The notes under the pieces were generated by a model. The model was not told the origin of the DNA. It searched no databases and worked only from the letters and a program-made list of their open reading frames with translations. Positions 1,355 to 3,194 of a stretch of 33,452 nt of DNA are shown piece after piece. How positions within the stretch are numbered: position 1 is the first letter of the stretch; every line of letters starts with the position of its first letter. This stretch comes from a virus. A program made the translations under genes and the position numbers. The DNA is taken from positions 1 through 33,452 of the IMG/VR virus record IMGVR_UViG_3300042691_028952. The stretch is one strand, 5' to 3'.

Positions 1355-1920
1355 GCGCCCCATTGAAACCACGCTTCCATCGCCAAATCGCCCTGTTCGC
1401 TGCACGCGAGGTATGCGAGGCGATCGAGCCGCATTGTGAGCCCGCCCGGCTCAAGGTCTGCGGTAGCCTCCGGCGGGGGCGAAAGTATGTCGGCGCCGTC
1501 GAGATCGTATTCGTTCCAAAAATGGTCGATTCGAAGGCCGATCTATTCGCTACGTCGCTCGTTCCCTCGACCGACGCCGCACTTAACTCGCTCATCGACG
1601 ACGGCATCTTGGCCAAGCGCAAGAACGTGAAAGGCTCTGAGATGTGGGGCGAGAAGAACAAGCTCGCGGTGCACGTCCGGACGGGCGTCCCTGTTGACTT
1701 TTTTGCCACGACCGAAAGCGCTTGGTGGAACTATGTCGTCTGCCGGACCGGCCCAGGCGAATCCAATATCGCGATCGAGGTAGCCGCCCAGCGAAAGGGC
1801 TGGAAGTGGAATCCCTACGGCGAGGGGTTCACGGACGGCGGCAAAGTGATCCCCGTGCGGTCCGAGCGCGAGGCGTTCGAACTCGTCGGGTTGCCGTATA
1901 AGGAGCCGAAGGACAGATGA
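1351..1920 (+). CDS. Pol X-type (DNA polymerase beta-like) nucleotidyltransferase
   Basis: This 189-residue protein starts at the ATG overlapping the RusA stop. It carries the nucleotidyltransferase signature GSLRRG (residues 38-43) followed by GAVEIVF (48-54), a third metal-site strand VPVDFF with Asp116, and a thumb-like region around WWNYVVCRTGPGESN to GWKWNPYGEGF. This is the minimal palm plus thumb of family X polymerases, without the 8-kDa or BRCT domains. The usual paired acids are D-x-D or D-x-E; here the first is Ala49 and the second Glu51, so one metal ligand seems to be missing. Likely roles are gap filling or terminal nucleotide transfer during phage DNA repair. Activity is uncertain because of the Ala. 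Confidence 0.75.
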   Translation: MSAPLKPRFHRQIALFAAREVCEAIEPHCEPARLKVCGSLRRGRKYVGAVEIVFVPKMVDSKADLFATSLVPSTDAALNSLIDDGILAKRKNVKGSEMWGEKNKLAVHVRTGVPVDFFATTESAWWNYVVCRTGPGESNIAIEVAAQRKGWKWNPYGEGFTDGGKVIPVRSEREAFELVGLPYKEPKDR

Positions 1921-2063
1921 CCTACGACCTCCTCCAATCCGAATATGGGATTGAAATCGACCGTGGCGCTTTAAATGCACTACTACAACGAAATCGACCC
2001 GAAGGCCTGCGCATGGTTACGCGAGCTAATGAAGGCCGGCCTGATTCCGGAGGGCGTCATTGA
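1917..2063 (+). CDS. Short ORF sharing its N-terminus with the HTH gene at 2715 (possible remnant)
   Basis: This ORF of 48 residues begins MTYDLLQSEYGIEIDRGAL and starts at an ATG overlapping the upstream stop (ATGA). The HTH gene at 2715 begins MTYEKLQSLGIEINRGAL, also with an ATGA overlap, and the two starts are similar at the DNA level over roughly 55 bases. From about residue 20 onward this ORF runs in another frame over the start of the methyltransferase gene and the likeness ends. It is most simply the broken 5' end of a duplicated gene left when the methyltransferase was inserted, though it could act as a coupling leader. It may not make a stable protein. Confidence 0.4.
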   Translation: MTYDLLQSEYGIEIDRGALNALLQRNRPEGLRMVTRANEGRPDSGGRH

Positions 2064-2718
2064 TGACCGTTCGATCGTCGATGTCCGGCCAGATGACCTT
2101 CGTGGGTTTCGACAATGCCACTTTTTCGCCGGCATCGCGGGGTGGGCGGAGGCCCTCAGGCTCGCGCAATGGCCGGATGACAGAGATGTCTGGACCGCCA
2201 GTTGTCCATGTCAGCCGTTCAGTGTCGCGGGCAAAGGACGGGCCCATTCAGACGAGCGTCACCTCTGGCCCATCCTCCGACAGCTTGTCCGCGTCCGCCG
2301 CCCTGCAACGGTCATTGGCGAGCAGGTTGCAAGCCCGCTTGGCCGTAAATGGCTCGCTGGAGTATTCGCTGACTTGGAAGGAATGGGCTATGCCTGCGCG
2401 GGAGCCGATTTGTGCGCTGCGAGCGTCGGCGCACCGCACATTCGCCAGCGCCTTTACTGGGTGGGCAACGCCTCGAGCGACGGACGGGAAGTGCGGCAGC
2501 AGTTACACGGAGAATTGCGAGGGACGGGATTTGGCGAAGGATGCGCGCCTTGTAGGCACAAATGCACCGACGGAAAAACGAGGCGCATTAGCCCTGAACC
2601 CGGAGTTTTCCCGTTGGCTCATGGGGTATCCGGCCGAATGGGGCTCTTGCGGGGCTACGGCAATGCGATTGTTCCAGCGTGTGCGGCGGAATTCATCAAA
2701 GCGTTCCTAGAGTTATGA
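1975..2718 (+). CDS. DNA (cytosine-5) methyltransferase
   Basis: This 247-residue protein is a compact phage C5 methyltransferase that transfers a methyl group from S-adenosylmethionine to cytosine C5. Motif I is FFAGIAGW (residues 50-57), motif IV PCQPFS (78-83) with the catalytic Cys79, motif VI GEQVAS (115-120, Glu116), motif VIII IRQRLYWVG (156-164) and motif X RGYGNAIVP (226-234). The 45-residue N-terminal extension (MHYYNEIDP...) is one I recall from phage members. The stretch between motif VIII and motif X, where the target-recognition domain sits, is only about 60 residues, short for the family. It probably protects phage DNA from host restriction. A second reading frame inside this gene also looks conserved, and related gene starts flank it. 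Confidence 0.92.
   Translation: MHYYNEIDPKACAWLRELMKAGLIPEGVIDDRSIVDVRPDDLRGFRQCHFFAGIAGWAEALRLAQWPDDRDVWTASCPCQPFSVAGKGRAHSDERHLWPILRQLVRVRRPATVIGEQVASPLGRKWLAGVFADLEGMGYACAGADLCAASVGAPHIRQRLYWVGNASSDGREVRQQLHGELRGTGFGEGCAPCRHKCTDGKTRRISPEPGVFPLAHGVSGRMGLLRGYGNAIVPACAAEFIKAFLEL
2063..2710 (+). CDS. Candidate overlapping gene in the +1 frame of the methyltransferase
   Basis: A 215-codon open frame from the ATG at 2063 lies wholly inside the methyltransferase gene. It reads like a protein pattern I recall from many phages: AALQRSLASRLQARL (residues 79-93), YSLTWKEWAMP (101-111), ICALRASAHRT (116-126), GWATPRATDGK (133-143) and LNPEFSRWLMGYPAEW (178-193). The main frame carries all methyltransferase motifs in the same bases, so both frames seem meaningful. 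No clear Shine-Dalgarno sequence precedes 2063. The known resemblance could reflect wrongly annotated frames of related methyltransferase genes, so translation is unproven and no function can be given. Confidence 0.4.
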   Translation: MTVRSSMSGQMTFVGFDNATFSPASRGGRRPSGSRNGRMTEMSGPPVVHVSRSVSRAKDGPIQTSVTSGPSSDSLSASAALQRSLASRLQARLAVNGSLEYSLTWKEWAMPAREPICALRASAHRTFASAFTGWATPRATDGKCGSSYTENCEGRDLAKDARLVGTNAPTEKRGALALNPEFSRWLMGYPAEWGSCGATAMRLFQRVRRNSSKRS

Positions 2719-3194
2719 CCTACGAAAAGCTCCAATCTCTCGGCATCGAGATCAACCGTGGCGCCCTAGCCTCCGGTTTCCGCGAGAATGAGCATCGGCC
2801 GGGGTCGGAGTGCTTCACGGACCCCGACGCTTCACGCAGGCGCGTAAAGCCCCCACCGCTCACAGAAGACCTGTCCCACCTCAACGGACGCCCTATGCGC
2901 GTTACGGCCTTTAAAGAGCTTTTGGCGTCCCGCGGCGAGTCGATTGACGGGCTGGCGCAGAAATCAGGCTTGGCGAGTAGCACGGTGCGCCAGTTGATCT
3001 CAAGCCCTCACCGGTATTCTGACGGCTCCAGGGCGCGCCTGAAACCGCTTCTTACGCCGGTGGAGTGGGCGATGGTCATCAGTTTTAGGGCAAACACGAT
3101 CAAAACAGACGCAACAGCGGAGGAAATAGACAAGGTCTTGAATTATGTCAGATCCCGGACAGCGTTAACGCCGGGTCACCAAAACGCGGAATAA
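2715..3194 (+). CDS. Helix-turn-helix DNA-binding protein
   Basis: This 159-residue protein starts at the ATG overlapping the methyltransferase stop (ATGA); an in-frame open stretch upstream lies within that gene and is not needed. Residues 1-20 match the short ORF at 1917. Residues 66-98 (AFKELLASRG, then SIDGLAQKSGLASSTVRQLI) look like a Cro/CI-type helix-turn-helix, and the rest is mixed helix. Residues 25-60 are probably a disordered linker. An internal ATG at 2895 would give a product holding only the HTH part. Its place directly before the replisome organiser suggests a regulator of early transcription or an accessory replication factor. The dyads at 7170-7222 are possible targets, which is inference. 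Confidence 0.6.
   Translation: MTYEKLQSLGIEINRGALASGFRENEHRPGSECFTDPDASRRRVKPPPLTEDLSHLNGRPMRVTAFKELLASRGESIDGLAQKSGLASSTVRQLISSPHRYSDGSRARLKPLLTPVEWAMVISFRANTIKTDATAEEIDKVLNYVRSRTALTPGHQNAE

Follow-up and report, generated by a model that had tools for sequence, protein, structure and literature searches.

The gene at 1975-2718 is very likely a dual-coding gene for a two-subunit C5-methyltransferase, in which the reading frame of one subunit (beta) lies nested inside that of the other (alpha), as in M.EcoHK31I. It belongs to the window analysed here, the whole IMG/VR virus record of 33,452 bases, whose phage identity is recognisable from a RusA-like resolvase, replication initiation and major head proteins. 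Both frames encode conserved proteins, selection is partitioned between them, and internal starts and ribosome-binding sites are enriched. Frame 0 would yield alpha, which carries motifs I-VIII plus X for AdoMet binding and catalysis; a ribosome initiating within alpha at ATG 2063, after a GGAGG and at a TGATG overlap, would yield beta from the +1 frame. The C-terminal half of beta would supply the target-recognition domain (TRD) and motif IX that are missing from alpha, and beta would read the target. We infer that the two proteins assemble into a single active enzyme, which methylates DNA at a target sequence and thereby presumably shields the phage from restriction. This kind of enzyme is already known, and the nested pair of coding sequences is annotated in several phages. 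New here are the quantitative evidence for dual coding as near-universal in the family and the testable proposal that the TRD lies in the nested frame.

Features of the nested methyltransferase gene (window coordinates, save for the last two lines)
Feature	Position	Strand	Remarks
Alpha, C5-methyltransferase catalytic subunit	1975..2718	+	247 aa, 247-codon frame
Alpha motif I, FFAGIAGW	2122-2145	+	sequence
Alpha motif IV, SCPCQPFS	2200-2223	+	sequence
Alpha motif VI, GEQV	2317-2328	+	sequence
Alpha motif VIII, HIRQRLYWV	2437-2463	+	sequence
Alpha motif X, GYGNAIVP	2653-2676	+	sequence
ORF of 48 aa in the +2 frame of alpha	1917..2063	+	candidate termination-reinitiation start for beta
GGAGG, Shine-Dalgarno-like site inside alpha	2049..2053	+	9 nt before ATG 2063
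Beta, nested +1-frame protein	2063..2710	+	215 aa from ATG 2063
Beta, alternative start TTG	2060	+	216 codons
Beta residues 1-76, variable Ser/Pro-rich lead	2063..2290	+	over alpha motifs I-IV
Beta residues 77-122, helix and beta-hairpin (SLASRLQARL ... YSLTWKEWAMPAREPICALRAS)	2291..2428	+	over alpha motifs VI-VIII
Beta TRD-like stretch (GWATPRATDGK ...)	2429..2593	+	over alpha linker between motifs VIII and X; in-frame match to single-chain phage enzyme
Beta motif IX-like segment LNPEFSRWLMGYPAEW	2594..2641	+	just upstream of alpha motif X
Bubbles123 locus (L190), nested pair	1603-2361		
WillSterrel locus (L200), single-chain enzyme	1612-2787		

Alpha matches PF00145 (2.3e-13) and phrog_363 (1.4e-70), and the catalytic motifs I, IV (PCQ), VI, VIII and X of a C5-methyltransferase are all present in it. 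Between motifs VIII and X, it has neither a TRD nor a motif IX, and in this it differs from a single-chain enzyme. The earlier note had credited the main frame with all methyltransferase motifs, which does not hold: motif IX and the TRD are absent there and appear in the +1 frame. Alpha models well with AF2 (pLDDT 81.5), the low-confidence parts being the linker from VIII to X and the segment preceding X; the best PDB match to the model is M.HhaI (Z 14.6, rmsd 3.2, 190 of 327 residues aligned), and the fold models as that of M.HhaI with the small domain roughly absent. In M.HhaI-like enzymes, it is the small domain that carries the TRD and motif IX (PMC3404938, PMC5944983).

The motif order of alpha looks rearranged (window 1975-2145). 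Ahead of motif I stands a conserved 44-residue N-terminus that resembles motifs II-III (YYNEIDPKACAWLREL...GVIDDRSI), the spacing from motif I to IV is 28 residues versus 64-73 in canonical relatives, and residue 1 maps onto M.HhaI residue 35 in the structural alignment. Neither in the PDB nor in canonical relatives did a profile search with this N-terminus find a significant match to canonical motif II/III.

Beta lies wholly within the alpha frame and stops at 2708-2710. That the +1 frame stays open for 215 codons had been noted before and is confirmed, and every segment quoted at that time is present. Beta matches phrog_1008 (1.1e-23), as do 79 of the 79 aligned beta homologues, and the protein matches 108 phage records, those listed lying almost all under an annotated methyltransferase. 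A profile of its C-terminal half matches a +1 frame overlapping a methyltransferase in 182 of 186 loci, of which the window is one. The earlier note had likened segments of the +1 frame to a protein pattern of many phages, and with the phrog_1008 match, the phage records and these loci this pattern proves real. Within beta, the most conserved block of the alignment is LNPEFSRWLMGYPAEW: its position on the DNA, directly before motif X, is where motif IX is expected, and it aligns to LNPAFPEWMMGWPTGW, which precedes motif X (IGNGVVPQ) in one and the same frame in phage WillSterrel. Searches of beta against Pfam, NCBIfam, PADLOC and PDB sequences returned nothing significant. The AF2 model of beta alone is poor (pLDDT 62.6), with a helix at residues 77-96, strands at 102-110 and 113-122, and residues 1-76 at low confidence and devoid of secondary structure; a fold search of the PDB with this model gave no significant match, and we therefore make no claim about the fold. 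An unconfident fold for beta alone would be expected of a partner-dependent subunit, yet it is not evidence for one.

Could the open +1 frame simply be a by-product of conserved main-frame residues and high GC, with no protein produced from it? In the window gene, synonymous shuffling produced a +1 frame of equal length in 195 of 20,000 rounds that used the gene's own codons (p about 0.01) and in 706 of 20,000 rounds that drew on the codon usage of the genome. We rejected openness in this gene alone as proof, as p values of 0.01-0.035 are weak in a GC-rich gene, and the conserved motifs of frame 0 impose some similarity on the +1 frame as well. The decisive evidence for dual coding is conservation rather than openness in one gene. 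Homologues were fetched in two ways, with only the main frame as the criterion or with the +1 protein, the latter including a search of genome contigs with an alignment of 11 beta sequences. In all 84 homologues selected by the main frame, the +1 frame is open, over a mean of 89% of the gene and a minimum of 65%, versus 22% of the gene for frame +2 in the same set; synonymous shuffles gave p<0.05 for the +1 frame in 71 of them and for frame +2 in none. The Fisher combination for +1 openness reaches about 1e-104 over 98 distinct genes, a value uncorrected for relatedness that overstates the significance because these genes are related. Openness p values of 0.0004 to 0.004 were likewise obtained for nested +1 frames in the Mycobacterium phage Bubbles123, the Lactobacillus phage Lc-Nu, phage C72C1 and the Paenibacillus phage Jacopo, the last of which gave 0.0004 at a GC of 0.47. 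Shuffles that preserve the alpha protein and its codon usage thus reject the by-product reading across homologues, lower-GC ones included. With the +1 frame also constrained where the main frame is neutral, and with +1 stops disappearing only beyond the nested start, we regard this explanation as extremely improbable.

The regional pattern of selection was obtained from 18 close homologue pairs, in which each difference was classed as synonymous or non-synonymous in each frame and regions were bounded by motif positions. These pair tests were run on relatives, and all relatives found are below about 70% identity to the window. Constraint on the +1 frame is absent upstream of the nested start (omega 1.16, 0.85-1.50; main frame 0.30), and over motifs I-IV (alpha codons 30-105) selection on it is likewise not detectable (0.94, 0.71-1.18; main frame 0.24). 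Over motifs VI-VIII, both frames are constrained (+1 0.49, 0.34-0.67; main 0.30). From VIII to X, it is the +1 frame that is constrained (0.41, 0.29-0.56), with the main frame near-neutral (0.92, 0.80-1.02), and over the last block (IX/X) both are constrained again (+1 0.59, main 0.39). The +2 control gave omega values of 1.0 to 1.9 in all regions. The conserved part of each frame therefore falls where the other frame is relaxed, save for two blocks that are important to both. A permutation of codon pairs in 32 pairs was positive for the +1 frame in every case (mean z 1.46, versus -0.32 for +2), which is consistent but weak; the test has low power because substitution types are kept. The suggestion of a true dual-coding gene is thus supported by each of the proposed checks that was run: the +1 frame is unbroken by stops in the main-frame-selected homologues, overlapping-frame substitution ratios put the +1 frame under selection over the neutral parts of the main frame and the reverse, and matches to the +1 protein overlie a methyltransferase in another frame.

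How beta is made can be approached from a redundancy-reduced set of 153 homologues. As far as alpha codon 25, +1 stops occur at or above the expected frequency. Beyond the start region they are depleted, with 2 versus 21.5 expected at codons 42-60, 4 versus 24.8 at codons 60-80 (6 versus 46 over codons 42-80 as a whole) and 0 versus 248 at codons 80-180. ATG codons in the +1 frame are enriched 1.5-fold at alpha codons 25-42 only (276 versus 181, z 8.7), and an early ATG followed by an open frame is found in 143 of the 153 genes versus 72 expected. Of 134 homologues, 86% have a Shine-Dalgarno match of at least 4 bases ahead of the nested ATG, versus 53% (sd 4%) in synonymous shuffles, and in the records of K1G, fTaEco01 and PhiXhv-28 the nested coding sequence is annotated as starting at alpha codon 28-30. 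In the window, the TGA of the 48-aa ORF (2061-2063) overlaps the beta ATG as TGATG. RNA structure around the beta start is not unusual (z 0.10).

These observations bear on a different route to the same domains, namely programmed +1 frameshifting that would fuse motifs I-VIII to the TRD and motif IX in one chain and make the upstream part of the +1 frame irrelevant. Single-chain relatives exist, a frame swap at two Enterobacteriaceae loci (L173 and L175) moves the TRD and motif IX into the frame of motifs I-VIII or next to these motifs, and the N-terminal residues of the +1 frame are without detectable selection, all of which would suit such a mechanism. However, a frameshift after motif VIII does not need +1 stops to be absent at codons 42-105, nor would it enrich ATGs and Shine-Dalgarno sites at codons 25-42, and the fused product would lose motif X together with the helix-hairpin over motifs VI-VIII, the latter being under selection in the +1 frame. 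We therefore consider frameshifting very unlikely. The depletion of stops, the enrichment of ATGs and Shine-Dalgarno sites, the GGAGG and the TGATG favour internal initiation, possibly coupled to termination of the short ORF, as the way in which beta would be made.

Relatives with other layouts speak to the identity of beta. In WillSterrel, the enzyme (gp71) reads in a single frame through motif VIII, LPTP-rich repeats, LNPAFPEWMMGWPTGW and IGNGVVPQ, and the beta profile matches its stretch from VIII to X in frame (2.7e-8). In WillSterrel, the helix-hairpin part is also weakly matched in the +1 frame, and this phage is therefore imperfect as a single-chain reference. Phages Ruin and Heather have the enzyme divided between neighbouring ORFs, the second of which is matched by beta (2e-12 and 4e-7, respectively). 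At one and the same locus, with flanks that are 80-89% identical, Bubbles123 has a nested pair and its sister Mycobacterium phage WillSterrel a single-chain enzyme. At L175 (2751-4030) and L173 (2709-3993), from Klebsiella michiganensis and an Enterobacter, the frame is swapped after motif VIII: the TRD and motif IX are in frame with motifs I-VIII or adjoin them, and motif X lies in another frame. In L175, the TRD, motif IX and motifs I-VIII share one long ORF; both loci look like a variant or a decayed copy.

By these alignments, beta is similar to the part of single-chain relatives that comprises the TRD and motif IX, and is very probably the supplier of the DNA-recognition part that alpha lacks. 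Beta might instead be a separate overprinted accessory protein, such as a regulator or an anti-restriction factor, that stands outside the enzyme; beta alone has no recognised domain and shows no direct sign of association with alpha, both of which would fit. We nevertheless hold this to be improbable, as the conserved half of beta aligns in frame with the very TRD/IX stretch of single-chain enzymes that is absent from alpha, and as a nested pair and a single-chain enzyme occupy one locus in Bubbles123 and WillSterrel. The earlier note had proposed a regulator or partner of the enzyme: the partner has gained ground, with beta resembling the missing TRD/motif IX subunit, and the regulator has found no support.

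M.EcoHK31I (YGGCCR) is a two-polypeptide C5-methyltransferase, and M.EaeI is another. For M.EcoHK31I, Lee reportedly described in 1995 a gene for the small subunit inside that for the large one, in another frame, with both subunits required in vitro. M.EcoHK31I is a natural two-polypeptide enzyme with motif IX solely in the small subunit and motifs I-VIII and X in the large one, where the TRD is also predicted (PMC3404938). The window gene is like it in that, by alignments and in-frame matches, alpha has motifs I-VIII and X and motif IX is in beta only. It appears unlike it in the TRD, which in the window seems to lie in beta; this comparison is by description, against a published prediction, and the placement in beta is where selection and homology both point. 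M.AquI is likewise a C5 enzyme in two polypeptides, the second of which holds motif IX together with some of the recognition region (PMC3404938). The window enzyme shares the two polypeptides with M.AquI and differs from it in being encoded by nested genes and in having motif X in alpha, where M.AquI has it in the second subunit; motif X shares one ORF with motifs I-VIII both in the window and in 177 loci, which sets them apart from the M.AquI type. The Ruin and Heather enzymes do resemble M.AquI. The same nested pair as in the window is found in K1G (gp34/gp35), fTaEco01, PhiXhv-28 and Jacopo, with both members annotated as methyltransferase in public records, and PHROGs keeps the two frames as separate families, phrog_363 for alpha and phrog_1008 for beta. 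Single-chain enzymes such as WillSterrel gp71 have the same parts all in one frame, in the order VIII, LPTP-rich TRD, IX, X. In the literature searched, we found no published description of the phage nested pair as one split enzyme.

Taken more broadly, the family is probably, though with some reserve on our part, an old and widespread dual-coding gene, with a catalytic subunit in one frame and, in the +1 frame, a whole recognition subunit made up of TRD and motif IX. Specificity would evolve in beta as the overlapping part of alpha drifts as a linker, and the nested form would interconvert with single-chain and adjacent-split forms through small frame changes. Long genes that overlap on the same strand often meet with doubt in prokaryotes and phages; the present family is a quantitatively strong case, with some 180 loci, conserved internal starts and selection that shifts by region from one frame to the other. 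Dual coding also explains why PHROGs has two 'DNA methyltransferase' families on the same bases. Many records with alpha only would miss the subunit that should determine target specificity, and it becomes a testable question whether the specificity of phage methyltransferases resides in an often unannotated protein.

The surroundings of the gene offer some further observations. Directly upstream, at 1354-1920 of the window, lies a DNA polymerase beta-like protein with a thumb match to PF14791 (1.6e-10) and a weak palm. The leader of the 48-aa ORF resembles that of the gene downstream of the methyltransferase: the 5' end of that gene (ATG 2715, MTYEKLQSLGIEINRGAL; 2715-2764) is duplicated upstream (ATG 1917, MTYDLLQSEYGIEIDRGAL; 1917-1969), an arrangement suggestive of a methyltransferase insertion between two partial copies.
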